Of a stretch of 64,000 nucleotides of DNA, positions 8,691-30,782 are shown piece after piece. Location of the stretch: positions 14,220,151 through 14,284,150 of the forward strand of contig NC_135257.1 in the NCBI RefSeq assembly GCF_964204865.1, in the 5' to 3' direction. Each line of letters opens with the position of its first letter. Positions within the stretch are counted from its first letter, which is position 1. The position numbers and the translations under genes were made by a program. This DNA comes from Styela clava. Its lineage: Eukaryota; Chordata; Ascidiacea; Stolidobranchia; Styelidae. The notes under the pieces were generated by a model. The model saw only the letters and a list, made by a program, of their open reading frames with translations. It did no database searches and was not told where the DNA came from.

Positions 8691-11600
8691 CAATGACATT
8701 AAACAACATGATGCGCAACTCCGGCATTTTTGTCCGAAGATCGTATTCGATAGCACGCTCCAATGCACATACTTGACGAGACGAAAACGAGCGGATGTGT
8801 GCTGCTTTCAAGGCGTAGCACGAATGGTGTTCGTGCCTGCTTTGACAGTTGTTGTCGATGTTAATGATATTTTTGAAAGTTGGGGTAAAAAGAAATCGGT
8901 AAAAGGTAAGGTGAATACTATTGTTGTATATCACACCCGGGCATCGCACTGTTAAGTACATGTGGGAAAGCCAGCCTTTGTCAAATACTACGAAGTTATT
9001 AATTCAGTACGGTACGTAGTTGCCCATTTGCCGAAATTACATATTTACTTACCCCTTATGGTTTCAAATAGTTCATGCACCTCCAGTTAGATTTTTTTAA
9101 TCAGTGAGGATATATACTCATTGTTGATTGCTGCTCATTGTAACATACTATTACGCATTCACTTTTATTTGCGTATTGAATCAAAGTGTTAACAAGTTCA
9201 CCTAACATTTCACTCATACCGGTCTATATTGTATAGTCTGATTTCTCAAGTATTTGGAGCCACGAATGCTTGTAATTTTCTGACTAAACTCTTTTATTAG
9301 TTGGTTTATATACCAAATTCAGTAAAATATTTTTTAAATAAAACATGAGATATTGGATTTATTAGCTTTTCCATTCTGAATCATATAGACTGCTTTATTT
9401 ATTCTTAACGAAAATTAATAAATCTCCTCTCTTTCTTCAGATGTGAAAGTTGTGGACAAACCTGTCTAAGCATTGTGAGACTCTTGCAGCACAAGAGGCA
9501 ATAGCAGAAATAGTAAGTATATCAATCAAGAAATTAAGCCGACATAAAGCAAAACTTTCAACTATTCGTCTAATCTCAATTTCCTATTATTTATTCACAG
9601 GACAACTATAACAGACGGGGAGATATCAGAAGTCTGGCGACATATCAGTGACAGTGTGATTCCAAGAAATATAATGCAATTGAAAATTGCAATAGAAAAA
9701 CAACCTATGGAGGCATGCAAAGACATTTGACCCTCCGGTAGAGTTGTGTATGGCCCCCACATCCTGCAGTGCTTGAGGAAAATAACTAAAAATTCCAAAG
9801 CGTAAGATTGCATAAGCGGTCTTATTTGTAAAAAGGCACAAAACACGCCAGACATACTTAAAACAGCTTTGGAAATGAGGATTACGGGTACCTCACTGAA
9901 CCTGTGTTATATTTGGTTCATCAACTTTTGGTAGTACTATAGAAGAAATTCCGGAAGGGGTATAATCATCATTCATGATAAAATACTATCATATATTTTT
10001 TGAACAACTTCAATCTAGACCAGGGATCTCAAACTCGCGGCCCCAGAGAACTTCCAGTGCGGCCCTCGAACGCTTAACAATAATTGTAATAGTATTTTGG
10101 AAGTTTTTTTTTATCTAAATGTAATAGATTTTTCAAACCTTCTAAAGTGAAATTGATTATTCACACAGGAAACAATTTACTGAAAGTAGTTTTGGAATAT
10201 TAATTTTTTTTGTCCACATTTTGACCCAATTAAGAATACACATCAAGCTAGCAAAAGAATACTTGAATAAAACACTTGAGTAATTAAATTAAACGCAAAG
10301 TACATGAAGAATGTGACATTTTTGAAGAAAATGGGAGTTGTAACATTTCTGCTCTTCACAAAATTCTGAAGCACATTGTTTAATTTGTCATATTTCCATC
10401 AATACAATCAAAAAACACAATAAGCTCAGCAGTCTATATGACAAATTCGAAGACCAACTTCGAACAGAAAATTTCCATGTGTTTGTATATTAATATAATT
10501 ATACAACGACTTAGTTACTAAAAATCAATATCAATAATAATTCAAGCAATCCTATGCCACGCAATGTAGTGCGAAATGTCTTGTCGAAAAAATCTGTCAT
10601 TTGTTTTTTTACCGATCTATACATGAAATGATAAAAGTAACTTTTTTGCATTACTGGAATTAATTAAACATTCGTAAAGATCCAGATAAACCCATGATCA
10701 TGTGGCCTCGTTAGTTAGATTTGGTACTATAAAATCATTTCAGACTGGCCTTAGTATGCTGGTGACACAAAAAAGATGCCAAACGCCAGGACAAATGTAA
10801 TTATTAAAACATTGAGTTTATACTGTAGTATTTTTGTTAATTTTAGGTTCATATATTTAGATTAAGTTATTTTTAGTGTATGTATTATTCTTTCCTTATT
10901 CAAAGCTTGTTCAAAAATGATTTTGATGGTTGTACATAGAATTTTACGATTTTTTATAATAAATACTGTAACTTGCAAATGTTGCAATAATAGTGGAATG
11001 CAAATATTAATATGTAATTGCATTTGAAATTGAAGAAAATAATAAAACCTAATCCAACTGTTTAGTTGCATCACAATATATGTCACAAACTAAAACTATC
11101 TTAAAAATATCTTTTGAGTATACATTATCAAAAACTGTTTGCGGCTCTTTTTACAATTTTCAAAATGCAATGCGGCTCTCGAAAACCCATGAGTTTGACA
11201 CCACTGATCTATTCTAGACGATTCAAGCATTGCTTTGGGAAATTATATCACTTCAATTAAATTGAAATAATCTCGCTATATTAAATACAAAATCGTTGCT
11301 ATCATAAAGGTAAACCAATTCAGCCACTCGAAATATATTGGCCTTCACAAAGCAATGGAGGCAAAATTGAGAGTTCATGAGCTATGAACATTTGTTCTTT
11401 TCTTTGTCTTGAACTTTCCATACTCCACAGCCCCTATTAATTTTAATTACCATGTGATGGTCATACATATCTTTAACTTGTATTTTCTATCATGATGTAT
11501 TATCTCAATGTGCCAAACTATTAATTAGTGTGCATATTTTGCTTCCAGATGACATAAATGTATTGTCATGTTTATTACCTCAGCTTGGAGTATTGACAAG

Positions 11601-12485
11601 AAAAAGGTGCCAGTAAATTAGGTAAAAAAATTTTCAACTCATTGTTATAATCAGAATTCACAATCAATAGGAATTATAAACAGCCAACAATCAGTGAGAA
11701 TTATATGCGAAATCCCTCAGAATAAATTTGTCTAAAATCGGAGGAAGGCAAAAAATATAGGTAGTTTCCATCCACACAAGCATTTCAAGAAGACTTGCTC
11801 GAGCCAAACTAAATGAGCATCGTCAGGTGATCGGTAAGGCTGCAAGTTGAATTCAGCCCTGCAACCTCCTGCATAGAAGATAATATTAATTAGTGGGCTA
11901 TGAGCTAAATTCCTAAATTTAAACAAACCTATCTACGATGCATTATGTACCAGCAATGTTACCTACGATTAACTGAATATGTAATATGTCTAATAAATTC
12001 ACCTACAAAAGCAAGTTCGATAGGTGCAAACTTTGTGTTATGGAATTGTATCGCAGCACAGATTTGTATGACACCCTCTTTAAATAAAATTTCAATGATT
12101 AAGCGCAAACATTAAAATTACTAACTTTGAACTTTGTCATTATCTGCAAAATGTTCCACACAAATCTTTCCGCTATCGCGTTTGTAATCTTCTCTGATAA
12201 AAAAAAAGTCTATGATGTCCAGAATTGCTCTTTACAGCTTGCCTGTTATTCCAGCTTTCCAAGTAAGCAAAACTTCTTAGATATAGAGATTATTTTGTTT
12301 CGTTACAGGCGCAAAAAGGCAGGTACTACACGTAAAAAAGACGCCGAGTAGCAAAAGCGAGCGGAAAACGGACGCGAAAGGCGACGAGAAATATGTGCAT
12401 TGGAGCGTATCATGAAATACAATGTTTTGCCTGTAGTCTTATGGAGTGACGTCAGAGTTGCCTATCATGTTGTTTAATGTCATTG
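8691..12485. mobile_element. 3.8-kb element, copy A (7-bp target duplication, unassigned superfamily)
   Basis: Ends CAATGACATTAAACAACATG at 8691 and its inverse at 12485. Similarity continues inward with interruptions for roughly 140 bases, for example CGCTCCAATGCACATA shared at both ends. Exact 7-bp duplications tccgtac at 8684-8690 and 12486-12492. Copy B (26571-30368) matches in inverse orientation along its length and differs by only 3 bp in total size. An internal hAT passenger sits at 10021-11206. Coding potential is weak: splice-acceptor-like sites precede 9441 and 9601, and the 9441 segment reads C-E-S-C-G-Q-T-C with a later His, but in-frame stops are shared by both copies. The element looks non-autonomous. 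A 7-bp duplication is reported for Dada-type and some P-type transposons; I cannot choose. Confidence 0.75.
10021..11206. mobile_element. hAT-like passenger inside 3.8-kb element, copy A
   Basis: Starts CAGGGATCTCAAACTCGCGG and ends GAGTTTGACACCACTG, an imperfect hAT-type inverted repeat. The left flank is atctagac and the right flank reads atctattctagac, an imperfect duplication. No transposase. Copy B has the same passenger at the same internal place (27883-29047), so it inserted before the two carriers separated. Confidence 0.75.
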
Positions 12486-12521
12486 TCCGTACGGAGCACT
12501 TTGAGAACCGATGCTCTATAC

Positions 12522-14096
12522 CAGTGATTTTCAACCTTTTTTGTACCGCGGAACACTTTTTTTAATTTAAAATTGTGGCGGAACACCAAACGAGATTTTT
12601 GAAAATAAACTATATTATGCAATTAACTGACGTCGATCATTTCGGCATGAAAATAAAATAGCGAAATCAATAATATATAAAGTATGTTAACTTCAGCTGG
12701 AAAAGACGTGACACACCCCGATTCAGAGCTACAAGAGCTAAAGTACGATACAAATAAATGTTTTTGCAAGTTTGCCTATGAATACTATGATTACGGTAGC
12801 TAGAAACAGAAATAGTATTTTAATGTGATATTTAGGTCTGTTTCGATGAGTTTCAAATATTTTATTCTGTAATTGAGGAGAGACAAACACGCAGCTCTTT
12901 CTCAACAGCTCTCAATTTCTCGCGTTTTTCTTTATACGCAACAGGAGTCCAGAAAGAAGGTCGGAGGTCGATTTGGAAATTAATAGAAACATTGAAAATT
13001 GGCAGCAAAGCGATTTTTACTGTTTAATTTCGTCATAATCGATACTTTTTTTGCCCCTTGAACGTTTTCATATTACCGCCTTTGTTCTTGTGCGCAACAG
13101 CGCAAGTATTAATTCTTGCCGATCGGCGGAGATCGAAGTTTTATATTTTTGTATAACTATATGCGTTCACATCGGCGACAGATGTTAAGGACATTAAGGA
13201 GCGCTTTTAAATTCCAATTTTATTCTGATTTTTATCTTTTGCGCTGGCTTGGATCTAACTTATCGCCGTTTGCAAATTAAACGTCCCAGTTTTAAGCGAA
13301 TAATATTATCATTAGCGCACACATTTATTAAGACGATAATTGAGTTTCTTATGCTCCATACTGGTGTCAGTGTTATTTCCGGAATAAATCAATTAGATAC
13401 TGTAATTAGATAAATCTGTGATTACGTGAATCCTGAATGTTGATTTAAAAGCTGAAATAAAGGCATTTCTACGTGGTCATTAGGCGAGATGACGATGAAG
13501 AGCACTTCTTTAACGATATCTTACATGCGCGACCTGATGCCAAAAAAATTGTAAACAATTTTTTGCCCAAGTGCTTTTGTGCTGATTAGACGCTGATTAG
13601 AATTAATCACCTCGAGTTTTAACGTTTTTTTTTCCAACAAAACAATACCGCGACCATTATCATAGCTAAAATCGTTACCTACAAATTCACAATTTTATTT
13701 ACGGAATTTGCAAATTCAACACTTCACTTGACGATTTTGATGATGCCACGCCCTAATTATTACAGCAAGAAAAGCTTCAAAATGCAACGAATGTAATCAA
13801 CTCCGATGATGACTCCATTCATGGTCGAGTATAATGTTCATATTTTTGAAACATTATTTGGTCAAAAATGGAATGGATCACTAAAAAAACGCCGAGATAA
13901 AGTCCATTAAAAGGGAATATGGCCTGTCATTTCTTATCTGGTCACAAGTCTTTTATACCGACTTTCCAAAACTCTGTCTCGCCGTTTTCAAATCGACGCT
14001 ATTTATATTATTCAAATGACGTCATAAAACCTCGAAAAAGCAATTTTTCGCAGAACACCTGGAGGTCTCTCGCGGAACACCGGTTGAAAATCACTG
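12522..14096. mobile_element. hAT element (CAGTGATTTTCAACC) in the same target as its neighbour
   Basis: Starts CAGTGATTTTCAACCTTTTT and ends CCGGTTGAAAATCACTG. The 8-bp duplication ctctatac at 12514-12521 and 14097-14104 is exact, and the left copy is also the right duplication of the hAT at 7276-12513. 1575 bp with no intact ORF; the termini retain GCGGAACAC near both ends. Confidence 0.88.
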
Positions 14097-14104
14097 CTCT
14101 ATAC

Positions 14105-14691
14105 TCTATAGCAGGGGCAAAGTGACTATAAACCAAAGTGACTATAACACAAGTGAGGACATGCATTGGTAACGTTATAAGCGCGTGTGTGACTTCACAC
14201 TCGCCATTTTGGGTCCAGAGTTCTATCGCTGTGTGATCCTAACTAAATGATTTAAACTTGCGATCGTTAAATATTTGATTAAAAAAAAGATGCTCAACAA
14301 TTCGGACCAAACTTTCGCAGCAGCAAAACGAATGAACATTCTTTTGAAAAATTAATTTTCCGCAGATATTTCTCAGATAACTCGGCTCGGCGGTACGGTC
14401 AGCATATACGAAGTTAAGGTTAAAGCGTAAATGGTTAAAGTCATCCAATTAAACTCGATAAATCAACACCCAATAAGACATAAATATTAAACAAAGAGAT
14501 ACACATTTTATTATAAAAATTCCTGATGTAAGTATCGCTAATTACACAGAACTTATTTTAACAAACTAACAGAAGTACAATACAAATTACACTACAGAAA
14601 CTTGCAACTATTTGTACATGATAAAATTTTCAACACTCCGCGCAAAAATACGATTGCTTTTTGGATGGGTGGCATAAATATTGGATAAAAC
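14105..14691. other. no gene seen
   Basis: Spacer between hAT-type insertions. A short direct repeat of caaagtgactataa lies near 14118-14148. Otherwise only shadow ORFs are present. Confidence 0.35.
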
Positions 14692-14869
14692 CAGTGGTGG
14701 GATTCAAATTTTTTGTCACCGGTTCCATCACACAAATGTCATATTTTTTAGCCGGTTCTGTTACAAAAAGTCATGTTTTTTTCAGCAATGTCAACCGGTT
14801 CGCTGATCTCATAAAATTCCGTGAGACGGTTCTATAGAACCGGTGCAAACCGGCTGAATCCCACTACTG
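14692..14869. repeat. hAT-type MITE, CAGTGGTGGGATTCA family, copy 1
   Basis: Starts CAGTGGTGGGATTCAAATTT and ends GCTGAATCCCACTACTG. Flanks gataaaac and ggtaaaac (7 of 8 match). It contains repeated CCGGTTC blocks. 178 bp, no ORF. Two related copies lie at 15016 and 45053. Confidence 0.85.
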
Positions 14870-15015
14870 GGTAAAACTAGCAATTTTCACATTTTTACCA
14901 TGTGTGTAAGACCGAAAAACAGTTAAGTAACGATTGATTAAATATAAATAATAATCACTAAAAAACAAGGGCCATGATATATATATACATTTGGTATCTG
15001 ATTATGGCACGTAAC

Positions 15016-15185
15016 CAGTGGTGGGATTCAGCCGGTTCGATAGAACCGTCTCACGGAAGTTTATGAAATCAGCGAATCGGTTAGCATTACTGGTTACTGT
15101 CAATGTTCTGTTTGCAACAGAACCGGCTGAAAAATATGTCTTTTGTGAAGGAACCGGCTGACAAAAAATTTGAATCCCACCACTG
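15016..15185. repeat. hAT-type MITE, CAGTGGTGGGATTCA family, copy 2
   Basis: Starts CAGTGGTGGGATTCAGCCGG and ends AATTTGAATCCCACCACTG. Flanks cacgtaac and gacgtaac (7 of 8 match). Its internal sequence is close to the inverse of copy 1 and parallel to the copy at 45053. Confidence 0.86.
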
Positions 15186-15236
15186 GACGTAACTAAATGG
15201 CCAAACCAAAAAGAATCGAAATTTTCTGCCAATATG

Positions 15237-15826
15237 TTGATAGGTTCTGTAACACCAGACGCGGCGACTGGTCTTCAAATTTTGTCCGTTATAATGTACA
15301 ACTCATACACTTCGATGCAATTCATTAGGCCGCACAATGGGCTAGTCATAAGACCGTTCATATTCTATCATTTTTGGAGCAACTGCTCGTTAAATCAAGA
15401 AAAATTTTCCCGAGAAAATTCGGACATTTCATCAGCTTCTTGAATGATTATTGCAAAACGCAGGCTTTAAACGTTCGGCATGGTGTGAACAGGTATCACA
15501 TTACCAGTTCAAATAATACCTGCTTTTTGGTTCTGGATCAAGGGTCCCAACTCAAAATACGTCACGGGCCACTTTATGAAATTTATGAGTTTTACATTAA
15601 TCATTCCAGAAGTTGATGAAATGAATTTTCTCGGGACAAATTTTCTTGATTTTCTTTTCTTAATCAATTTAACGAGCTGTTGCAACAGTTGCTCCAAAAA
15701 TTATAGCATGTGAACGATCTCATGGCTAGCACATTGTGCGGTCTAATGATTTCATCGAAGCATGTACATTATAAGGTACAAAATTAAAAAACCAGCCGCC
15801 GCAACTGGTGTTGCAGCTCTTATCAA
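15237..15826. repeat. long fold-back repeat, arms about 220 bp
   Basis: Left arm roughly 15237-15453, right arm roughly 15595-15826, inverted and about 80% alike by eye. Shared blocks include tttttggagcaactg, cgcacaatg and cccgagaaaatt. The 140-bp centre contains CAAGGGTCCCAACTC, which looks like a decayed hAT terminus. No protein-coding signal. Confidence 0.7.
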
Positions 15827-16079
15827 ATTATTATTGGCAGGATATTTCGACTCTTTGATATCCAACAGTGAAAAATTAGCCTTGATGTTTCCGGCGGAAC
15901 CCTATAAAGACGCGGGGTTCAAATTGTTTGTTTTTATGGAAACTGTCAATCGCGATGAATGCCCACAATCGTTACTAACTCTTTTTATGTCTTACACACA
16001 TGATAAATATTTAAATTTGATAGTTGATCGAAACATGATGAATTGTAGTTTGCAAGTTTTTTTCTTTAAATAACCAAGG

Positions 16080-16148
16080 CGAAAAAAGCCGCATGAAACC
16101 GGCGCAAGAGTTGCATGCGGCTCGCGAGCCGCGGGTTGGCCACGCGTG
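16080..16148. repeat. solo hAT-type terminus
   Basis: GC-rich end reading GCGAGCCGCGGGTTGGCCACGCGTG, whose inverse CACGCGTGGCCAACCCGC fits the hAT end consensus CAGNGGTNNCCAAC. The other end may be CAAGGGTCCCAACTC near 15538, but no 8-bp duplication supports the pairing. Confidence 0.4.
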
Positions 16149-16321
16149 GGATATAGAGTTTATTACGTGGGAGAAAGCAAAGTCCCAGTTATTGTTTTTA
16201 TATTATTCCGATGACTGTTGTTTCACTTAGGTTGACAAAAGATAAATTCTCTCTCCATAAGACATCCAATTATATGCAGTGCAAATGCCTGGCAGCTATA
16301 CCGGGCTATCTATAATGTAGG

Positions 16322-16600
16322 ATAGGATTTTACATATTTAACCTGGGGGAGTGGAAAGCCGATAAGACGGCTTATCCATATGGCGAACCACGGCCTCTCG
16401 TCCGGTTACGATTCCAAGTCGGGTATGGGATTAGTTATATGAGTTGTTTTCGGAAGCATGGACTTGGTGGTGGAGGAAGCCGTAACATACCAGCGGTTAC
16501 GTGAACCACCCAACGACGGCGAGGAGTCGAGCAATCCGCACATAACCATCATTGCATGGGATTCGAACCTGCGAACCCTCGCAGAGTAATTAGAGAATTA
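16322..16600 (-). repeat. tRNA-related SINE
   Basis: On the - strand a B-box-like GGTTCGAATCCC (about 16558-16570) is followed by a GC-rich body with CTCCTCGCCGTCG, TGGGTGGTTCACGTAACC and GGCTTCCTCCACCACCAAG, ending near GTTAAATATGTAAAATCC. The order (tRNA-like head, body, AT-rich tail) is that of a SINE. From memory the body resembles repeats in ascidian genomes. A related fragment is at 37890-38000. Confidence 0.6.
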
Positions 16601-16969
16601 CATGTTTGAATGTATTTTAAACTCTCTGCCAAACATCAGGATAGTAAAATACACAAAATGTTTTTTTTTATGAAAACTACACAGTGAAAATAGAACAGTA
16701 TTATAAAAAAACAACAAAAAAAACAACAACAACAATTATTCACATTCATGTGCCTAACTAGAATGGGATCATACTATACATTTTAAAATTTAAACATTGT
16801 AATGAGCTAACAATAGATGAATAAACACTGAACTGTTTGGGAAATGCCCATTAACCAATTTCTATACAAATTCAGAGTTATACAGAGGGTGAAATAAAAA
16901 GATCAGGAATCAAGGAATGTCAGCTTCAGAATGGATCCACTGGTATCTTACAAACAAACAAGATAGCAA

Positions 16970-19020
16970 TCAAGTGGTTGAAAATTGATCAATCAAATCT
17001 ATTTGTTCTGCTTCTTGCTTTTGCAAAGCTTCATGTTGCATGCGTAACCTGAAATATTTGAATAAATATAATTACTTTGACAGTTAGTGTCTAGGGCTAA
17101 GCTTGAGAAACACATGCTTGCCCCGAAAAAGATGCTGTAGTTTAGGGTTGCCATGCCGTCCGGAAAATTCCGGACATGTCCGGAATTTAGGGTTAAATTT
17201 TGCGTCCGGGAAGAATTTAAAAAATGCTCAAATGTCCGGAATCCGGAATTTTACTGCATCTGCAATCGTACTGTGCACAGTGCTAATACAGAACCTTGTT
17301 ATTTTGTACCGTGCGCATATTTCTCACTACGAGGTCATGAAAATAGTCATGCACTGTCCGGAATTTTGCTTTTTCAAATATGGTGACCCTACTGTAGTTT
17401 GTCATAGGAATTTCAAAAACAAGCATAAACAATGCCATTGTCAAATCTATATTTATGCCAAATCTAAATTCCATGGATTACTAGTAGATGTATGGGTTTA
17501 CTTTTGACTCCATAATCACAATAAAAGATGTAAAATCAAAAGAAATAAAACTGATTACAGAATCAGGAAAGCGTACAAAACCTCAAGGTTTAAAACGTAC
17601 AGTATTTAGATTGAAAGGTGTTGTCAAAAGAAGTGTTCACACACAATGCTCACACAAAATGCGATGCCTTGGTTTTTATCTGACATTCTTTTCTAAAGGA
17701 AAAGAGATTTGACCACGCCCACAGGTAATGAAGATTTTTTGGGTTCAGATATTTCCTGTCATATTAATTTACGACTAAATGATAGAGAATAAAATACCAT
17801 AACACACAGTACCTTTCTAATTGTGTTTTCTTCTCTACAATAAGAGCTTGAAGTTGTTGCTGCTGGGCTTCTCTTTGTTTTGCAATTGACTTCAGCAAAT
17901 TTCTTGATCCGATCGCCTGACAATATGCAACATGAAATAAGTCAGAGTTATCAATTATAAAAGAAGGTTTGCTCAAAATTAAACACAGGGAATCATATAG
18001 TCTCCAATCTGAAGAAAAATGAACAACAATACAACTGAAAGCACATGGTAAATCGGAATTATTAGATTCACTTACATTCTACAGCATATAGGATACTTTC
18101 ACACAAACGATATTCAGTATTGGGAACAGTGGGCTTTCGACAGCAAACATTTTTTTTTCGATCATTGTAAGAAATGAGAATGCACAGTAATTTGGGTCAC
18201 CAACCTTCATTTTTTCTTTTTCAACATCCTTGGATAAATTATCAGTGATATCTATGAAGCTCCCAACAAGTTTTTGAAAATCTGCAATCTCTGAAATACA
18301 AATTAATAAAAAAAATAAGGCATTCAGATACAAAACATTATTGAAAATACAGCACAATGTGAAATTGTGAAGAAGGCATATATGCAAGCAGGGCTGTAGA
18401 GTTAGGAAAAATTGGCACTTTATTACAAACTCAGTACATAGCCATTTAAAATCTGACCTAAGCTCCAGACTATTGGTTGACAAAAAGTTTACCTCCAAGT
18501 TAAAGATAGTTTGGGCTTACACACTAGCTCCTAACTCGGAGATAATCAAGCTTTATTAGCAAAAACAATAAATCGAGCAAGCCAGCTTTCTTTAATTGTT
18601 TGTTGAGAATGCCTAATCTACATGATGTGTTTGGAATTTTTGTTGTATATTTCAACTTGTACTATGAGAAGTCTGAAATTATGACTCAATTTGATTTCAA
18701 AACTCCTGCGACTGGCTGAAATATCAATAGAAGCACACTAAACTCACTACTACACAGACCATGATCCATCCATCAATTTATAGTTTTTCAATGAATGTAA
18801 TGACTGATGGTAAATGAGAAGAGTGCTTCTGATACACTAAATGAAATGATCATATTTACCTTATATTACAAATTCTGTACTTACTTGCAACAAACTCACG
18901 ACATTCATCCTTTAATTCAACAGTTTGTTGAGCAGCTTCAGGATCTAACACTCTTAATTTGTTCAAATCATCAAAATGTAAACCAGCTCGACTCAGAGCA
19001 TCTTCAGCAGACATCTTCAT
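16970..19020 (-). CDS. IFT20: IFT20, intraflagellar transport complex B subunit, 4 exons, 134 aa
   Basis: Exons in coding order: 19020-18885, 18290-18205, 17916-17813, 17048-16970. They total 405 nt and phases close exactly. Recognised from [20 protein letters not shown], then [13 protein letters not shown], then [20 protein letters not shown], in the family order; vertebrate IFT20 is about 132 aa. Known role: a small coiled-coil subunit of the IFT-B train that also sits at the Golgi and helps move membrane proteins to cilia. Nearly the whole protein is predicted coiled coil. Two in-frame ATGs, at 19020 and 19014, are possible starts; I took the first. The donor after exon 2 (GTTGGT) is a weak GT site. 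A MITE lies in intron 3 (17143-17391). The next gene upstream is CENPL on the same strand. Confidence 0.95.
17143..17391. repeat. MITE with TAGGGT ends in IFT20 intron 3
   Basis: Starts TAGGGTTGCCATGCCGTCCG and ends TATGGTGACCCTA; several TCCGGAAT blocks lie inside. Exact 8-bp target duplication ctgtagtt at 17135-17142 and 17392-17399. 249 bp, no ORF. The 8-bp duplication and TAGGG ends fit a non-autonomous hAT. Confidence 0.85.
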
Positions 19021-20957
19021 TTCCTGCCTAGTATTCTGGAATTTAATTTAAATTACCTATTTCTGTATTTTTACAATGCAATTTTATATAAATACAGTAA
19101 TATACTGACTATGCTTATAAATCATATAACAAAATATTCATTGCAAGCGAATACACAATTTGACGGTAGCGTAGCGTACGGTACCGGTAGTTCTGTATTT
19201 GTGCAGGACCTTAAAGAGCTAGGAAAAATATAACAAATATTGTTAACAGAGCAGCTAAGGTAGGCCTACCGGTAACATCCTGAAAAAGGAAAAACAATTG
19301 ACTGTTTTAAATGACCTACAGCTGTACAGACCTAGTCCAAACACAGACAATTTTGGGACTATTACCGGTATCACACCTACTGCTGTATGGTACCGGTACC
19401 CGGTAGGCTACCATGTACTGTGAAGCCCCCGCTCTCTGGTATCAGGCTATTAAATCGTGTAATTCCTAAATTCAGTAATTGCTGAACAATCTATTCGCAG
19501 ATTCGAGTCAGATAAGCTTGCTGAATAAAAAAAAAAACTCACTGCAAAATTATGTCAATGGCGTCGAAACTGAAAACTCGAGCTGTGGTAAGGATACATA
19601 CCGGTACGGTAACAAACTGACATACATATGCTATATGCAAATGAATAGTTACGGTAAAGAGTTAGAGATGAGAAAGAACACCTGAAATCTTGGTACGGTA
19701 CCGGTATCATGTCATTTCGTTATCGCTACCTTAAACTTCCCGCGTTTACCGGTATCTCAGGCTATCCCAATCTGTATATAAAAAATTATAGGAACATCAT
19801 TTTCCCGGCACCGTACAGCATAAAAATCTCAAAGCTCCAACAAAAATCATATCCGAATTCAGAACAAGTGCTGATGTAGGTGTTTCGCAACAACAATGTT
19901 AAATCAAGCGGTTGTGAATCTGAGCGGGGATTGAAAAAAACTAGTAGCCTAAGCGACACGTGGTTAAATATTTTTATAGCAACGACGGCTTTGAACGTGT
20001 AAAATCGTTTGTCAAAGCCACTCTCCAACACACTCCCAAATCAAAAAGTTTGCAATAGCAAAGTACGGTGGAAGAAAATTTTTTCGGGGTCAAGGGTCGG
20101 GGAAACGTCCATAGCCTGCCAATAACCATTTTTGAACACAGAGTGTCACAGGTAACTAATGCCAGTGGGCGGAAGTTGACTTAGGGACGGAATAACTCAA
20201 CTCCATGCGATAAATATAAAATGGTATCCCAATCTCTGTTAAAATTTGATCCTTCAACCAGACATTTCACGTACAGGATGGCCAACACGAACCCGATAAG
20301 TTTGAATTGCATCCACCACGAAAAAGCAACTGCTGTCATAATTTATTTTGTATCAGTTTCTAAAATTGTGACATCTATACAAATCCAAACCACGTGATAT
20401 GAGATTTTGAACATCGCACAAACAACTGCGGTTTATTCCAGAAGCATTGTATCATGAGCAGTATTGTACTGTAACATAACGAATGAATCAACCTAATTAG
20501 CACAAAAAATGACACACCTTAACCATATAAAAACAGCATTAAGATAGGAATATAACAAAAAATATGCAAAAATAGCAATCTAAACAAAAATAAAGCAATG
20601 GTTGAAAAGAGAGGGAGGCAGTGTTAAACATCATAGATGGAATCAACTTTGGAAAGTAAATGCGAAGATACAAAATAACACTAATTCGTGATGAACCAAA
20701 TGGATAATATTGTATAAAACAAGTTGCGCAAAAGAGCCTAGTTTTTTAGCAAACAATTTATCAACATAGTCGGTTCTCTTATGGAGGCAATAGTAAAATT
20801 TAACAAATAACTGCAGAAACAGAAATATTGATGTAACATAAAAACCAGGTTGTGCATAAGAGCCAAGTTTCATCAACATAGCTTTCTTTCTTTGTTTGAA
20901 GAATATAATGTGAAAATTCCATTCTATTAAATCCATTAATAAATATTCCATCAAATA
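19021..20957. other. IFT20 upstream / CENPL downstream spacer with ACCGGT cluster
   Basis: Spacer between two - strand genes. The part 19150-19770 is rich in TACCGGTA-type palindromes (at least seven ACCGGT sites). This could be part of the IFT20 promoter or a decayed repeat. The rest shows only shadow ORFs. The CENPL 3' UTR should begin just below 20958. Confidence 0.4.
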
Positions 20958-23886
20958 TCAGGATTCTACAGCGGAGTAAATTCTCTCTGATGATAGGCAA
21001 CAGAGATGTGCTAGGACAGTGAGTATATGAGCAGCCGACCCAATCTGGCAAAAAATGTAAAATTTTATGAAACTTCGTGAAAGCAAAATCCAACAATTCG
21101 TAAGTGATCAGTGTTTGAAAAAGAAACTAACCTTAATCTTTCCAGAAGACTGAACTCTGATGAATGGTGTGGAAATCTCTTCCAGTATGAGAGACTAAAG
21201 AAAATTTCAAAACGATTTAATGAAATTTCATATTCAAATATGACAAATATACTTCCCACATTTTTTGTTATTACTTACCAAGCATGAATTTGAATAAACC
21301 ATACTTTCCTAATCTATATATTGTGCAAAATTGTGCTAACAAAGATGGTTCAACAAAGGCTTGAAAATGACATGCATATCATTATGCCAACAATACTACA
21401 ACATACGAAAATCTTTATACTACCTTGAATTTTCAGTTTATTTCAGAATTCCACCCGACTAGATTACAATTGGACTTACGTCAAATTTTATGCCAGACAT
21501 TCCCTTAAGATGGGAAGTTATCGCTGACATGAATTTTTCCACATATTCTACAGTCATCTCATCGTTTTCAGAATTCTTCATGCTAATGATGAAAAGTTGA
21601 GAATTAGTAACAGTGTAGAAGTGGTATTTTGCCCACATCAAAGTAGACAACATTTTTTTTTATATTCTTTCCATACTTTTCTTTTCAAAAAAATCTCTGA
21701 ATGAACAGAAACTGACATGTGAGGAGCCAATATCTCTAAAATATCCCCAGTTTGGCGTCGCTCATCCAATATAGCCTATTACTCCAAATCCAACCAACAG
21801 AAATAGGCCATCATGCCAACTAACTAATGATGGAAAGATGAAAAATCTTAATATCTTTACCTTTCCCAAATCTCAGTTGTAGATGATGGAGCTATCTGAA
21901 ATTTGATTGTATCCAATCCTATATTGTCAACAGGAATCTTCCAAATGAATTCAGTTAGAAATGATTTTCTCTTCGAAGAAGGAATGTATTTAAAACTTGT
22001 CCACATGCTCATCATCCAACTTAAATCAATTGGATTAAACTTCACAGGTCTAATGACACAATCGAAATTGTCCTGTTAAATTAACATAAAAAAAAAACAC
22101 TCTATTAGTAAAATAAATGCTCGAATTTATAGACATGAAGGTTGAATTACTTACGGTACAAGCACCCACAATGCCAGCTAATGTCAGTTAAATGATTCAT
22201 ACCTAATGCCATACAAAATATTTGAAAACAAATTAACACTGTGTGTCACAACAATGTGTGCTATAAATTATAGAAAAGAGCATTTATGGGCATGCAGATG
22301 GGAATAATGGAAGATCTTCCATTTTTCAGTACTGAAAATTTGAAATTGACTGGTTAGTTGCAATAAAATGCTTTTTCTTCAAAACAACCCTGATAACAAA
22401 AATTTAGAAAAACGATCCATTGATCCACTTTGTATTAAGATACTTGAAGTGGATTTTATAAATGAAATCACGCAGATTTTCTACATATTTGCTTTACTCA
22501 TCACAAATATTCTATAAAATGCATTGCGACAGAACAATAATAAATATAAATAAATATGAACGTGCTGTATCTTTCACTAGGTAATTCTCAAGTTAATTAA
22601 GACTGTAGAATATACCTCACCTCAAACCAAGAAATTACAGCTGAACAAGGCTTCTGGATATATCCATTGTAAATCATGATCGGTAAGGAATAAAAACCAC
22701 TTTTCAATAATCGTATTGTCCTAATATTCTCAGCTGTTGGATTTGAAAATTCGAGAGGGTTGACATCCACAGATAGGAAATATACTTCAATAGGATTTTT
22801 CTTTTCATCATAAGATATGTGCAATTTTATAGCATCAGGTTCATCTGTTGATTATGTAGAGTTGTAAATAGAAATAATGAAATAATTTGCATTTCAGAAA
22901 GGAAATTACAAAATTAACCATTCAGAAATATTATCGTTAATTAATCATTCATCAGGGTCCGAGGATGCTGGAGTTAAAAGAAATTCGCAATAGACTCAGA
23001 TCTAAAATAAATTTTGACTGCGAATCCCGACACTCGATTGTAGGAAATTTCTACTTCGACACCAGCTCCAAGAAAATCCAACTTTCTCATATACAAGCCT
23101 TCTTTAATAGACCGTTAATAAGAAAGACTCGGCGTCAGTAAAAACATGCTAAGCTACTCAACAGTCCTGGCTGTGATAAGCACACTCGGGAAAAATGGAT
23201 AGAAAACCATACCTTGTTGAATTGCAAATCCTTGAACTACAGAAAACTGAGCTGTCAGTCCACCTGAGAATTCTGATGAGAGAAAACAATCCTGTTTCTG
23301 AATCTCTGATGTTAAATATGCTGATAGATGTTGCGAATAATGTCTCAATGAACTTTCATCAGTACGAAAATTGTACAAAGGTGAACAAGAATGGCAAATC
23401 CAAGTTTTATACAGCATTCCTGTGATAATTGGTAACATAGTAATTACACAATATTTAAAATACTAATTTGAAGTATGAATGAGTTTATAAATTTCACATA
23501 TTACAAAACTAAATATTTTTGCCAAATTTGCCTACACTATTTAGAGTGAGTTTGATTTAAGATAAAAGTTTAAACAATGGAGTGAAAAAGAATGAGGTAA
23601 AGTAAGTATGTACTTTGATCAACTACTTAATCTTGACAAATCAGCTTACACGAGAATCAATTAATGTAAATAGCCCTGGTTTCGCTGTCATTGCCTAGAT
23701 TAAAAAAATGGACAATTTTAAAAAGCAACTTAGGTATTGAGGCAAACAAAAATTACCTTTAAATATTCCTTCAATTTCCGGAGTAATTACAGTTTTTTTA
23801 TGTCTTTTATGTTTTTTTGTATCCAATAAACTCTGCCTTTGTATTTTCCTCTTACGAACAGTCGAATGTGGTGTTTTAAAACTCAT
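20958..23886 (-). CDS. CENPL: CENP-L, centromere protein L, 7 exons, 341 aa
   Basis: Exons in coding order: 23886-23757, 23419-23213, 22844-22621, 22072-21861, 21582-21480, 21194-21132, 21044-20958. They sum to 1026 nt and every phase closes; human CENP-L is 344 aa. Matches to the family from memory: S-P-L-Y-N-F near residue 55, VISWFE followed by NFDC, then NPIDLSWMMSMWTS, FIWKIPV, a TEIWES turn, and SGKIK followed by a hydrophobic terminal helix HILTVLAHL. Known role: CENP-L pairs with CENP-N in the constitutive centromere-associated network on CENP-A chromatin. The basic N-terminus (RKRKIQRQ, KKHKRHKK) may serve nuclear import or DNA contact (inference). The last two exons are short (63 and 87 nt) and easily missed by gene finders. 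Confidence 0.93.
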
Positions 23887-24301
23887 TATTTGTTATAATT
23901 AAAATACTGGGAAATAAAATTACAATGTAGAACAAGCACAAAGATTTAAAAATATTAAATCAGTGATAGTGATAATAGAGCATTCTAGAAACAAAATAAA
24001 AAAAGTAAATCAATCAAGGTAATAAAGACAAAGTCGCAATTAAATTTTTTGCAACATCTGATCCATTCCGGTACAACTGCCAGGAATTATCGAAAAACAT
24101 TTTATGGTCGTATAACATTTTTCCCAACCTAGGTTAGATTGAAGCTACCGGCAAGTCAAGTAACACTGGTGGTCAATTTAATTACCTCTATCAACCTGTT
24201 TCATTTCACTTTTTTCAATTGCCAAAACCCGCTATTGTATAATGAGATAAGACATGAACAGAACTAGAAGCATGATTGCATAGAGCTAAATGAAATATTT
24301 A

Positions 24302-25387
24302 CTAGGCATGAAACAAAGGTACAATCTTTTTTATATCACTTCGACATATCGGACATGTTTTTGGGGATGGCAAAATTTCAACACAATCTACACAAGCACA
24401 AATATGACCGCAGTCAAGAATAACACATTCTCTAGGATTCGTTAAACATATGATACAAGTATCATCTTGACCTAAATTTCTTTCAGACATGTTTCCTGTT
24501 GTCCTTCGTGTTGCTTGCCTTTGCTGTCTTACTTCTGCGAGTTCTTCACGCATTTTAGCATATTCCACAGCAGATTTGTATTTTTCCCAGAAGCGCTTTC
24601 CAGCAAAATAAAGTCCAATAACAGTGGCAGCGAATGACAATATTCCTAAAACTTTCCATAGCTTTGACTTGGACTGAAAATGACGAATAACGTCAGCATG
24701 TGATGATTTAGTGAGAATGTATTCACCATGGATTGGTTTTTTCAACTTTAAGAGTCCGTCTTCAATAAATAGTTCGCCAATACCTAAAAGTTTCGTTCCA
24801 ACTTGGAGCATCTTTTCTGTATCAGTATATCCTTTTACTCTATCTCCAGATACTATTCCAATTATTGAATCCATTACTGAAGAATTAGGAGAACGATATT
24901 CTTTATTTATAGTATCAAGAGTGTCACTGCACCACGAAGACTGCAATGGGTCAACAACATGAACAGTTGCATTATCAGCCCCTTTCAAACTGAATGGCAC
25001 AGTGTCTATTATATTTGAAAGTTCATTCTCACTTTCATACCAAACATGAGAATATTTTGCCCACACTTCTTTCCGCTCTTCAGTAATAAAATTGATAATG
25101 ACACCTTCGCGATCTGGGAAATATCGACTTCGTAAAGAAGCTGCATCTGGTTGTACTTTTCCAGACAATGCCACATACTGGAAATTGTCACCAGCATACT
25201 TCACTTCATTTAATAAATCATCATTGATTGACAACAAAGAGGCATCTTTTAAATGCTTGGCTGCAGCATCATGTTTATTTCGAAAATGATAAAACAATGA
25301 GGACAATCCAAAACCTAATCCAACCAATGAAGCTTCCAATAAAACTTCACCATCTATGCAGTCATACAATACATCCGTCCAACCCAT
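24302..25387 (-). CDS. MUL1: MUL1/MULAN mitochondrial outer-membrane E3 ubiquitin ligase, single exon, 361 aa
   Basis: An uninterrupted ORF with the MUL1 layout: membrane segment 1 near residues 15-35, an intermembrane-space BAM/GIDE domain, membrane segment 2 at about 243-264, a basic coiled stretch, and a C-terminal C3HC4 RING starting at Cys311 (CIICL ... CGHICAC ... CPICR) that ends a few residues before the C-terminus, as in the family (human MUL1 352 aa). Known role: anchored in the mitochondrial outer membrane with the RING facing the cytosol; it ubiquitinates or SUMOylates mitofusin, Drp1 and Akt-type substrates and affects mitochondrial dynamics. RING cysteines and His all appear present. 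The gene lies about 400 bp downstream of, and on the same strand as, the CENPL start. No introns are seen; an older retrocopy origin is possible but no poly(A) tract or target duplication is obvious. Confidence 0.95.
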   Translation of the reverse strand: MGWTDVLYDCIDGEVLLEASLVGLGFGLSSLFYHFRNKHDAAAKHLKDASLLSINDDLLNEVKYAGDNFQYVALSGKVQPDAASLRSRYFPDREGVIINFITEERKEVWAKYSHVWYESENELSNIIDTVPFSLKGADNATVHVVDPLQSSWCSDTLDTINKEYRSPNSSVMDSIIGIVSGDRVKGYTDTEKMLQVGTKLLGIGELFIEDGLLKLKKPIHGEYILTKSSHADVIRHFQSKSKLWKVLGILSFAATVIGLYFAGKRFWEKYKSAVEYAKMREELAEVRQQRQATRRTTGNMSERNLGQDDTCIICLTNPRECVILDCGHICACVDCVEILPSPKTCPICRSDIKKIVPLFHA

Positions 25388-26442
25388 CTTTTAAGTAATT
25401 ATTTTCTGATCTATCGCAGCATTACCAGTGTTTAACATCAACATTTACAGATTTATGTGCAAAACCTGAATTGGTCAACAATACAGTAAAAATAAATAAT
25501 TAAGCTGCTATCCGGGTATTTTGATGATCAAAAAGTCATTGGATGAGCTTTCTGATCTACAGGAAAAGGGTGAACTCAATATACTCCCTCCGCTTAGCAT
25601 GTCAATACAGACATAGCTGGATTCTTGCAATATTGGGAGGTTGAAGTTTGGGTTCAGTTTGATCCCGCATACTGGCGGTATTTATTTCAGATTGCGACAT
25701 CTTCAATTTTTGCTCAAAACTTATTCCATATGATATTAAAGATTTTGATGAATGTGACAGCCCTCTGGTAACCGGAGTCGCTCTTGAATGCATTTATTGA
25801 TTGGCGATGTTGGATTTGACCCTGCAAAAAGCGCTATTGATTGGGAATTGTACGGTTATGTGTATCGTAACGAATATATAAACAATGAAAATAGTAAAGT
25901 GGGAGCCGGGATACGAGTCCAATATCATATCCACTCGAAACACACTTGTGCGTACTGCGTACGCCAAAGTATGTTTCTCCAACCTTTGACCCCGGGAAAA
26001 TTCTTCTATATTTCATGCATAGTTACCTTACAAGGAAATATATTATTCGACCATAGTTACCTCATTATGAGGTAACTATGATTCGACTGTCTGTCGTTCT
26101 GGTTGACTGGCGCTGTACGATGACTTTGCTTGTTTTCCGTCTAATGCTTGGCGGTAATGAAGCGTTGAGTTTATTTCTGCGTTCGGTTTTATGTTCTTGA
26201 TTCAGGGCGAGTAAAGAGAAGCAATGCAGTAAATTTTGGTGTTGGACGCACAATATTTCCAACCAGAATTTGTTCTTACAGATAAAATCTATCAAAATCA
26301 GATAAGTTTATAAGTTTTTTTCACATTTATGGTTAATGACACTTTTGACAACAGAAATTGACTTTTTGTCATTTTTTTCTAAAGGGCAACCTAGAATTTA
26401 TCCAGCAAAACTGCAATATGATGCTAGGAGTATGGTAATTAT
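25388..26442. other. intergenic, small perfect hairpin only
   Basis: Upstream region of MUL1. No gene seen. The one feature is a perfect 14-bp inverted repeat at 26052-26080. Confidence 0.4.
26052..26080. repeat. perfect 29-bp hairpin
   Basis: CATAGTTACCTCAT and ATGAGGTAACTATG are separated by one base. Function unknown; it could be a remnant MITE centre. Confidence 0.8.
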
Positions 26443-26570
26443 ACTATAGACAAGGGGTTCCAAATTTTATTGGCCGCGGGCCAAAATTAAAATGATGTTC
26501 GTGGGACGGAAGAGTGTAGCGCCCGAAATCAAGAAACGGTTGATAATCAAATTATTGCCGTATGTCATCC

Positions 26571-29500
26571 CAATGACATTAAACAACATGATAGGCAACT
26601 CTGACGTCACTCCATAAGACTACATGCGAAAGATTGTATTTCATGATACGCTCCAATGCACATATTTCTCGTCGCCTTTCGCGACGGTTTTCCGCTTGCT
26701 TTTGCCACTCGGCGTCTTCTTTACGTGTAGTACCTGCCTTTTTGCGCCTGTAACGAAAGAAAATAATCTCTATATCTGAGAAGTTTTGCTCATTTGGAAA
26801 GCTGGAATGGCAGACAAGCTGTAAAGAGTAATTCTGAACATCATAGACGTTTTTTTATCAGAGAATATTACAAACGCGATAGCGTAAAGATTTGTGTGAA
26901 ACATTTTGCAGATAATGACAAAGTTCAAAGTTAGTAATTTTAATGTTTGCGCTTAAACATTGAAATTTCATTTAAAGAGGGTGTCATACAAAACAGCAAA
27001 ACTGTTTTTACTTCTCTTAAAGGTGCTGTGATACAATTCCATAACACAAAGTTTGCACCTATCGAACTTGTTTTAGTAGGTGAATTTATTAGACATATCA
27101 CATATTCAGTTAATCGTAGGTAACATTACTGGTACATAATGCCTCGTAGATAGGTTTGTGTCTAAATTTAGCTCATAGCCCGCTAATTAATATTATCTTC
27201 TATGCAGGAGATTGCAGGGCTGATTCAACTTGCAGCCTTACCAATCACCTGACGATGCTCATTTAGTTTGTCTCGAGCAAGTCTTCTTGAAAGACTTGTG
27301 TGAATGGAAACTACCTATATGTTTTGCCTTCCTCGGATTTTAGAAGACAAATTCAATCTGAGGATTTTTGCATATAATTCTCATTGATTGTTGGCTGTTT
27401 ATAATTCCTATTAAATGTGAATTCTGATTATATCAAAGAGTTAAACATTTTTTACGTAATTTACGGGCACTTTTTTCTTGTCAATACTCCAAGCTGAGGT
27501 AATAAGCAAGACAATACATTCATGTCATCTGCAAGCAAAATATACACACTAATTAAAAGTTTGACACATTGAGATAATACATCATGACAGAAAATACAAA
27601 GATACAGTATGTATGACCATCACATGGTAATTAAAATTAAAAAAAATTAATAGAGGCTGTGGAGTATGAAAAGTTCAAGACAAAGAAAAGAACAAAAGTT
27701 CATAGCTCATGAACTCTCAATTCTGCCTCCATTGCTTTGTGAAGGCCAATATATTCCGAGTGGCTGAATTGGTTTACCTTTATGATAGCAACGGTTTTGT
27801 ATTTAATATAGCGAGATTTTTTTTCAATTTAATTGAAGTGATATTATTTCCCAAAGCAATGCTTGAATCGTCTAGAATAGATCAGTGGTGTCAAACTCAT
27901 GGGTTTCGAGAGCCGCATTGCATGTTGGAAATTGTAAAAAGGGCCGCAAACAGTTTTTGATAATGTATACTCGCGAGATATTTTTCAGATAGTTTTAGTT
28001 TGTGACATATATTGTGATGCAACTAATCGGTTGGATTAAGTTTTATTATTTTCTTTAATTTCAAATGCAATTACATATTAATATTTGCATTCCACTATTA
28101 TTGCAAGTTACTGTATTTATTACAAAAAATCATAAAATTCCATGTACAACCATCAAAATCATTTTTGAACAAGCCTTGGTTAAGGAAAGAATAATATATA
28201 CACTAAAAATGACTTAATCTAAATATATGAACCTAAAATTAACAAAAATACTACAGTATAAACTCAATGTTTTTTTAATTACATTTGTCCTGACGTTTGG
28301 CATCTTCTTTGTGTCACCAGCATACTAAGGCCAGGCTGAAATGATTTTATAGTACCAACTCTAACTAACGAGGTCACATGATCATGGGTTAATCTGTATT
28401 TGCAAAAGTTTAATTAATTCCAGTAATGCAAAAAAGTTACTTTTATCATTTCATGTATAGATGAGTAAAAAAACAAATGACAGATTTTTTCGTCAAGACA
28501 TTTCACGCTACATTGCATGGCATAGGATTGCTTGAATTATTATTGATATTGATTTTTAGTAACTAAGTCGTTGTATATTTATATTAATATACAAACACAT
28601 GGAAATTTTCTGTTCGGAGATGGTCTTCGAATTTGTCATATTGACTGCTGAGCTTATTGTGTTTTTCATTGTACTGATGGAAATATGACAAATTAAACAA
28701 TGTGCTTCAGAATTTTGTGAAATGCAGAAATATTGCAACTCCCATTTTCTTCGAAAATGCCACCTTCTTCGTGTACTTTAATTTAATCACTCAAGTGTTT
28801 TATTCAGTATTCTTTTGCTAGCTTGATGTGTATTCTTAATTGAGTCAAAATGTGAACAAAAAAAAATTAACTTTCTACAACTACTTTCAGTAAATTGTTT
28901 TCTGTGTGAATATTCAATTTCACTTTAAAAGGTTTGAAAAATCTTTTACATTTAAATAAAAAAAATTCCAAAATACTATTACAATTATTGTTAAGCGTTC
29001 GAGGGCCGCACTGGAAGTTCTCTGGGGCCGCGAGTTTGACATCCCTGGTCTAGATTGAAGTTGTCCAAAATATATAACATTATTTTATCATGAATCATGA
29101 TTATACCCTTTTCTGAATTTCTTCTATAGTACTACCAAAATTTGATGAACCAAATATAACACAGGTGTAGTCAGTGAACCGTAATCCTCATTTTTCAAAG
29201 CTGTTTTAAGTATGTCTGGCATATTTTGTGCCTTTTTACAAAGAAGACCGCTTATGCAATCTTACGCTTTGGAATTTTTAGTTATTTCCCTCAAGCCCTG
29301 CAGGATGTAGGGGCCATACACAACTTTACCGGAGGGTCAAATGTCTTTGCATTCCTCCATAGGTTGTTCTTCTATTGCAAACATTTATGGAGTATTCTAA
29401 TCATATTTCTTGGAATCAAACTGTCACTGATATGTCGCCAGACTTCTGATATCTCCCCTTCAGCTACAGTTGTCCTGTGAATAAATAATAGGAAATTGAG

Positions 29501-30368
29501 GTTAGACGAATAGTTGAAAGTTTTGTTTTATGTCGGCCTAATTTCTTGATTGATATACTCACTATTATTGCTATTGCCTCTTGTGCTGCAGGAGTCTCAC
29601 AATGCCTAGACAGGTCTGTCCACAACTTTCACATCTGTAGGAGAGGAGATGTATTAATTTTCGTTAAGAATATATAAAGCAGTCTATATGATTCAGAATG
29701 AAAAAGCTAATAAATCCAATATCTCATGTTTTTTGTAAAAAATGTTTTACTGAATTTGGTATATAAACCAACTAATGAAGGGGTTTAGTCAGAAAATTAT
29801 AAGCATTCGTGGCTCCAAATACTTGAGAGATCAGACTATACAATATGGACCGGTATGAGTGAAATTTTTAGGTGAACTTGTTAACCCGTTGATTCAATAC
29901 GCAAATAAAAGTGAATGAGCAATAGTATGTTACAGCAATAAGTATATATCCTCACTGATTAAAAAAATCTAAATGGAGGTGCATGAACTATTTGAAACCA
30001 TAAGGGGTAAGTAAATATGCAATTTCGGCAAATGGGCAACTACGTACCGTACTGAATTAATAACTTCGTAGTATTTGACAAAAGCTGGCTTTCCCGCATG
30101 TACTTAACAGTGCGATGCCCGGGTGTGATAAACAACAATAGTATTTACCTTACTTTTTTCCGATTTATTTTTACCTTCAATTTTCTACATATCATTAAAA
30201 ACCACAACAATTGTCGAAGCAGGCTCGGACACCATTTGTGCTATGCCTTGAAAGCAACACACATCCGCTCATTTTCGTCTCGTCAAGTATGTGCATTGGA
30301 GCGTGCTATCGAATACGATCTTCGGCCGAAAATGCCGGAGTTGCGCATCATGTTGTTTAATGTCATTG
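26571..30368. mobile_element. 3.8-kb element, copy B (inverse orientation to copy A)
   Basis: Ends CAATGACATTAAACAACATG at 26571 and its inverse at 30368. Exact 7-bp duplication gtcatcc at 26564-26570 and 30369-30375. It aligns in reverse to 8691-12485 nearly end to end (3798 against 3795 bp). It includes the same hAT passenger (27883-29047), and on the - strand the same short cysteine-containing segment near 29565-29640. The two copies have diverged by scattered substitutions and small indels. Confidence 0.77.
27883..29047. mobile_element. hAT-like passenger inside copy B
   Basis: Starts CAGTGGTGTCAAACTCATGG and ends CGAGTTTGACATCCCTG. It is the inverse of the passenger at 10021-11206, at the same internal place. 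No ORF of note. Confidence 0.75.
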
Positions 30369-30782
30369 GTCATCCTAATACCGGTCCATATAATTGAAAT
30401 ACCGGTATAATTGAATTGTTGTGATAAACACGGGCTTAATCTGTGATAATGACGTAATAATTGGCGGTATCTAATATATCGCAAAAGGTATAAACAAAAT
30501 CTGTTTAACACTATTTCACTTAAGCTCGGCGGGCAATATTAAATTGTTACACGGGCCGGATTTGGCACGAGGCCACGGTTCGGGAACCCCTACTATAGAC
30601 TCTCTGTCTGGTCTATATTTTAGCTTCAAAAAGGTAATGCCTCAGTGAATGGTGTCCTCGCACGGTTCACTTCAGTACTTGGATTGCCTAACCACGCACG
30701 GACGGTCTGATCACTAACTTTTCTATTTACTGTCCAGTCAATTCTCTTTTCTCTGCGTGAGTTACAGTACATGATTCTATAT

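Follow-up and report, generated by a model that had tools for sequence, protein, structure and literature searches.

A non-autonomous P-superfamily transposon family in the ascidian Styela clava, and related elements of the same genome with a putatively split transposase

The DNA analysed here, referred to as the window, is a stretch of 64,000 nucleotides of Styela clava contig NC_135257.1 (positions 14,220,151 to 14,284,150 of the forward strand). It harbours two 3.8-kb transposons, copy A (8691-12485, plus strand, 3795 bp) and copy B (26571-30368, minus strand, 3798 bp), which an earlier note, made from the letters alone, had described as inverse copies of one element of nearly equal length. 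Full-length alignment agrees with this description: A and B match end to end with 91.2% identity over 3852 columns. Both copies have the termini CAATGACATT...AATGTCATTG and are flanked by exact 7-bp target duplications as claimed, tccgtac for A (8684-8690 and 12486-12492) and, for B, gtcatcc on the plus strand or ggatgac in element orientation (26564-26570 and 30369-30375). Beyond the ends only 2 bp align, so that a segmental duplication, which the note had named as the competing origin of A and B, can be ruled out. In the family consensus the terminal inverted repeats are 31 bp long and mismatch at two positions; inward of them lies a further inverted repeat of 17 bp, ACGCTCCAATGCACATA, which is perfect. 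Placed on A from the consensus, the terminal repeats occupy 8691-8721 (plus) and 12455-12485 (minus), and the inner repeats, with positions counted in the sequence, 8755-8771 (plus) and 12392-12408 (minus). We report here that these copies carry remnants of P-superfamily coding sequence and that relatives in the same genome appear to encode the transposase in two convergent genes.

Each copy lies inside a separate hAT element, as had been noted, and these hosts have 8-bp duplications of their own. CTCTATAC (7268-7275 and 12514-12521) brackets the hAT at 7276-12513 that was entered by A, and ACTATAGA the one entered by B (about 26451-30591); both were read from the printed sequence and their coordinates counted by hand. 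Empty sites were found as well: a query consisting of both flanks of B and one copy of its 7 bp matched across the junction, with 74-86% identity, at 38 other listed places among the 40 candidates scored out of 488, two of those 40 being the window itself. Matches that span the junction and lack B indicate that B is a true insertion into an older repeat. Nested in both copies is a hAT-like element of about 1.2 kb, at 10021-11206 (plus) in A and at 27883-29047 (minus) in B, identified by its terminal repeats and by its being common to both copies; it lies in the same coding exon in each. In A it interrupts the exon for the C-terminal domain described below, and its flanking 8-mers agree in 6 of 8 positions. 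This shared passenger accounts for the earlier impression that the coding region is degraded in the same way in A and B.

P-superfamily coding sequence survives in A and B as remnants only, which can be assigned to two genes of their relatives, a gene 1 for the catalytic part of the transposase and a gene 2 for its C-terminal domain. On the plus strand of A we find a probable remnant of gene 2 exon 1 (8824-8905, position counted), with the consensus MVFVPALTVVV... and donor gtaagg, comparable to MEPVPALTVVV... in the full-length relative on contig C18. Next comes what is left of the zinc-finger exon of gene 2, CESCGQTCLSIVRLLQHKR (9441-9512, position counted), whose C2H2 pattern is intact in C18, and then a remnant of the C-terminal-domain exon (9605-10029; tblastn with query L062C, E 7e-12). 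In B the latter lies on the minus strand at 29094-29315 (E 7e-21 to 8e-21), 59% identical to C18 over 74 columns and with stops. The RNase H part of gene 1 has left a remnant on the strand opposite to gene 2, at 11756-11848 (minus) in A (query L062M, 31 amino acids, 74%, E 2e-9) and at 27227-27322 (plus) in B (E 1.7e-8). At the DNA level, A also matches the putative THAP exon of C18 at approximately 12114-12241 (minus; consensus 3443-3570 against c18 10179-10305, 82%). Judged by these remnants, the 3.8-kb copies belong to the P superfamily; they are non-autonomous, have lost internal sequence and carry a nested hAT.

The family is abundant. The exact 31-base end occurs 443 times in forward and 424 times in reverse orientation in the 376.6-Mb genome, 867 times altogether, while a reversed-pattern control gave 0. 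Among 100 listed ends, 74 can be joined into 37 pairs, each with one 5'-type and one 3'-type end; a span of 3.70-3.85 kb is seen in 28 pairs, and the extremes are 2.7 and 7.0 kb. For a closer view 40 loci were taken from the genome, 38 of them as best matches to the first 300 bp of A, a choice by which young copies are over-represented. Leaving out three loci at which our script recognised no 3' end (L009, L012, L024), counting L037 as two elements and adding A and B gives 40 elements, of which 34 are 3.70-3.83 kb long and 38 have an exact 7-bp target duplication. The remaining two, L018 and L042, each have another element 7 bp off. Identity to the family's own consensus is 99.1-99.6% in 33 copies; A stands at 99.5%, and B is an exception and an older member at 93.9%. 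Thus, by the similarity of its copies, the family is young and recently amplified. The 38 duplications lie in a palindrome, T-NN-GTNNNAC-NN-A, that extends past the duplicated bases (T-3 in 32, G1 in 23, T2 in 28, A6 in 29, C7 in 21 and A+3 in 31; each p < 1e-6 against an assumed base composition), and a palindromic target preference is evident from these insertions.

The CAA start and TTG end of an element supply the outer A and T of this motif, so that its own duplication should remain a good target. Such a preference would account for neighbouring elements with a spacing of exactly 7 bp, as if one had entered the duplication of the other, which we observe at L016 and, among the listed ends, at C2:1064957/1064995 and C2:1659460/1659498; the C18 element likewise has a neighbour 7 bp away (C18:4785616/4785624). 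Two copies on different contigs, L018 and L025, have a common 566-bp insert at the same internal site, and L025 has an exact 7-bp duplication; a passenger-bearing copy may thus have moved again. We considered this insert as lost coding sequence and rejected it, as it ends in ATGATTGATT repeats and resembles a retroposon tail. L024, inspected as a possible longer relative, proved to be short instead: it is a copy of about 0.57 kb with an internal deletion, and GTTGGGG flanks it. Two places at a distance of 86 kb (C16:11880734 and C16:11966965) have the same variant end, CAATGACATTAAACAACATGATC. One of them, L064, is a 5'-deleted family copy of 2.76 kb; it begins at consensus position 1078 behind a 22-bp end, and GTTTTAT flanks it on both sides.

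A longer relative with transposase coding parts, where the earlier note had envisaged a longer copy, was recovered by a genome search with PF21788, the GTP-binding domain of P transposases, which among others gave a divergent match on C18. Within the 13 kb read around this match lies an element of 10,154 bp (c18:464-10617) that ends in CAATGACATATAACAACATGAT and is flanked on either side by GTCAGAC. Eleven collinear blocks (weakest E 0.003) align the 3.8-kb consensus to it over the whole length of the consensus, which lacks large internal parts of the longer element, and the ends of the two differ at two of the first 30 bases. The minus strand of the C18 element carries a putative THAP exon and the exons for RNase H and the GTP-binding domain (gene 1), and the frame of the first of these begins MSKHCCVPGC, with its ATG about 200 bp from the 3' end. 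PF21787, PF21788 and PF21789 score above the Pfam cut-off in gene 1. PDB 6p5a chain A, the fly P transposase, matches gene 1 with E 2e-16, and D303, D528 and E531 stand opposite D, D and E (fly residue numbers from PMC7776569). VCDGLS with the second D and DPLEAFFG with the E align to D303 and E531 of 6p5a. The first D was placed in LSMDEIKG by motif and by a PF21787 match of its exon below the cut-off, and compares with D230 of a fused P family in the same genome. A domain scan of four C18 parts detected none of the hAT type.

The C-terminal domain of C18 is encoded on the other strand, as a 290-residue plus-strand frame (gene 2). A C2H2 finger exon, CESCGKTFPSIVRLLQHKRQH, precedes it and would be spliced to it in frame through an apparent donor and the acceptor that follows. 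By predicted splicing gene 2 probably starts some 130 bp from the 5' end, in a likely first exon, MEPVPALTVVVDFDNVLESGVGKEIART with donor gtaagt, that is also recognisable in the 3.8-kb consensus. The identity of gene 2 is supported by BLASTP against the fused 822-residue P protein of the same genome, in which it matched the C-terminal part (E 3e-7), by an hhalign comparison with two fused C-termini (E 4.6e-5), and by a profile of three gene-2 proteins, whose best PDB match was the 135-residue chain B of 6p5a (E 1.7e-4). We take this chain B to be the C-terminal piece of the fly P transposase, given its length against the 569 residues of chain A. From these similarities we hold with high, but not full, confidence that gene 2 is homologous to the P C-terminal domain.

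This arrangement is not restricted to one element. In searches that scored 103 of 640 and 135 of 913 candidates, with matches paired by eye among those listed, both parts were found at six loci (C18, C19, C2, C6, C5 and C1), on opposite, convergent strands in all six. A C-terminal domain in the same polypeptide, which is usual in the P superfamily and no part of its definition, was seen at none of them. By our count these loci would represent at least four lineages. C2 and C19 are 34-54% identical to C18, the gene 2 core is conserved between C18 and C19 (35% identity), and frames are open in C18 and C19. In the parts compared between C2 and C19, 192 codons of gene 1 show 0 changes and 233 codons of gene 2 show 3, and this near-zero divergence indicates that the C2/C19 family moved recently. 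Its two stop codons are 17 bp apart, and its gene 2 starts with a possible finger, CHMCFEDCGDFILHHHRTC. A gene 2-like sequence at C2:473912 was considered as a second C18-like split locus and rejected: its C18 similarity stops 276 bp past the gene, and no gene 1 match was found within 2.9 kb.

A second P family is found in the same genome at loci L050-L056 (for example C6:11275220), with frames open up to 834 residues and the C-terminal domain fused on the same strand, so that fused and split P transposons coexist. Its left end is CACTGAACT, not CAATGAC, and on this comparison of left ends it was rejected as the source of the 3.8-kb copies. A further divergent P-like coding fragment lies at L061 (C8:8200200-8207200), where a member of the 3.8-kb family begins just beyond, and a match at C5:15218946 has a score and frame length close to those of L061.

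Taken together, we consider it probable that A and B belong to a recently amplified, non-autonomous P family, mobile by a cut-and-paste mechanism in which insertion is staggered by 7 bp, and that its relatives encode a split transposase whose two proteins assemble and mobilise the 3.8-kb copies. Gene 1, read from the 3' end, would provide the catalytic THAP/RNase H/GTP-binding protein, and gene 2, read from the 5' end on the opposite strand, the C-terminal-domain protein, in C18 behind a C2H2 zinc-finger exon. In the fly enzyme a flexible, disordered linker connects the C-terminal domain to the RNase H domain, and the C-terminal domain is seated on another subunit, between the RNase H and GTP-binding domains of the latter (PMC7776569). 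The split would lie about where the fly enzyme has this linker; a break there would leave the interfaces intact, and from this we infer a two-subunit enzyme in which the C-terminal domain would act in trans between subunits, as in the fly, and which would have mobilised the 3.8-kb copies. Whether this has become an obligate partnership, that is a P lineage with a catalytic protein and a C-terminal-domain protein with a captured C2H2 finger encoded by convergent genes, we regard as an evenly balanced question.

Several observations weigh against a split transposase and against C18 as the source. The hhalign comparison of gene 2 with two fused C-termini reached a probability of 68.6% only; the C18 gene 2 protein on its own found no P transposase in PDB, and a Pfam scan of it matched no model. 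The THAP match of the C18 exon (PF05485, E 4.9e-4, 21.2 bits) stays below the Pfam cut-off of 23.9. The genome has 11 exact C18-type ends, and none of them pair except the two at C18; with a single place that has both ends and a two-base difference in them, the true source may be another element, to which C18 is a sister. About 2.8 kb of C18, from the 5' end to the zinc-finger exon, is partly repetitive and without gene assignment, so that C18 may carry insertions. C2 has an E for the second catalytic D and lacks 11 gene 2 residues that are present in C19, and stops occur within the C6, C5 and C1 matches. For one exon of gene 1, compared between C18 and C19, the ratio of nonsynonymous to synonymous divergence (dN/dS) is 0.21, but the synonymous divergence (dS) is as high as 2.1, and for gene 2 dS is saturated. 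The models of both genes are predictions from genomic sequence.

The main rival explanation is that gene 1 alone suffices and that gene 2 encodes a regulator or repressor, a free finger/C-terminal-domain protein that binds the transposon ends or competes for the place where the C-terminal domain docks, and so represses transposition. Truncated P products repress transposition in flies, the C18 gene 2 has a finger exon of its own, and with stop codons only 17 bp apart in C19 the convergent genes could also cross-regulate each other by antisense transcription. In the fly, however, the C-terminal domain follows the path of the looped strand and touches both the transposon and the target DNA (PMC7776569), and its unreplaced loss from gene 1 would probably cripple the enzyme. 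With the gene 2 core conserved between C18 and C19 as well, we judge a regulator unlikely. A conventional P element in which the opposite-strand domain stems from an inversion in a dead lineage, the fused source being absent from the assembly, would fit the single C18-type element with both ends and the presence of a fused family with an 822-residue frame in the same genome. The same arrangement at all six listed loci, with C2 and C19 at 34-54% identity to C18, argues against it, as do the open frames of C18 and C19, the recent mobility of the C2/C19 family, the first exon and donor of gene 2, which appear to be in place, and the left end of the fused family; we therefore regard an inversion as improbable.

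That the family might be a hAT with 7-bp duplications appears very improbable. Ends of hAT elements follow the pattern CARNG, which CAATG fits, and hAT entries with 7-bp target duplications appear to exist in Repbase, as suggested by an extraction command (PMC4455052). Against this, both the coding remnants and the full-length relative belong to the P superfamily, no hAT domain was seen in the scanned parts of C18, and the duplication is 7 bp, not 8 bp, in 38 of 40 elements. The earlier suspicion of a non-hAT family with 7-bp duplications is thus upheld. The note had offered Dada- or P-type transposons; the P assignment stands, on the remnants, the full-length relative and the match of its transposase to the P profiles and 6p5a, and Dada falls with the 31-bp inverted repeats.

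The window holds other elements and genes. A non-LTR (long terminal repeat) retrotransposon at 51281-54304 and 54455-55456 (minus) has two open frames, one of 1007 residues for an endonuclease/reverse transcriptase and, upstream of it, one with a Baculo_FP_2nd domain. A hAT transposase with open frames and matches to DUF4371 and Dimer_Tnp_hAT lies at 33726-35842 (minus). A host-like gene at 24302-25390 (minus) has GIDE and RING domains and is MUL1-like in their order.

Taken by itself, the 3.8-kb family would be one more new family derived from P elements; what would be new is the conserved split, and it bears out the earlier suspicion of a poorly described family. Neither a split nor a convergent P transposase was found in the titles and abstract openings of the open-access literature, Repbase being outside this scope. 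In any case, an abundant repeat family with 7-bp duplications gains a superfamily and a candidate source. If the split is true, it would show that the C-terminal domain can work in trans. It would then offer a ready handle on what this domain contributes to the capture of the target and to strand looping, as well as a transposase of two components that could be controlled one by one.

Several known systems share features with this family. Dada elements have duplications of 6-7 bp, but the Dada families described in PMC3706591 are without terminal inverted repeats and reside in small RNA genes. Here, 31-bp repeats are present, which speaks against a Dada identity; the 40 copies have diverse flanks, those of A and B being hATs, and the flanks were not searched for RNA genes. 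Zebrafish Pdre2 and THAP9 share the P-type transposase and the terminal and subterminal repeats (PMC10983969, PMC7776569), but have 8-bp duplications, 13-bp ends and the C-terminal domain in the same protein. Galileo, a P-superfamily element of Drosophila, has a 7-bp duplication and a palindromic target, GTANTAC (PMC4168063); it differs by its long foldback-type repeats, a single transposase segment and a different target motif. With the Drosophila P element (6p5a/6pe2) the family shares 31-bp terminal repeats and an inner inverted repeat (11 bp in the fly), a probable THAP domain, an RNase H domain with GTP-binding insertion and the DDE residues (PMC7776569), as well as a palindromic target, with AGT/ACT halves in the fly (PMC4168063). 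Unlike the fly element it makes a 7-bp instead of an 8-bp duplication, and its full-length relative measures 10.2 kb against 2.9 kb. In both the fly and the zebrafish P transposases the C-terminal domain is part of the same chain (PMC7776569, PMC10983969), whereas in the relatives described here it is predicted to be encoded by a separate convergent gene, in C18 together with a zinc-finger exon.

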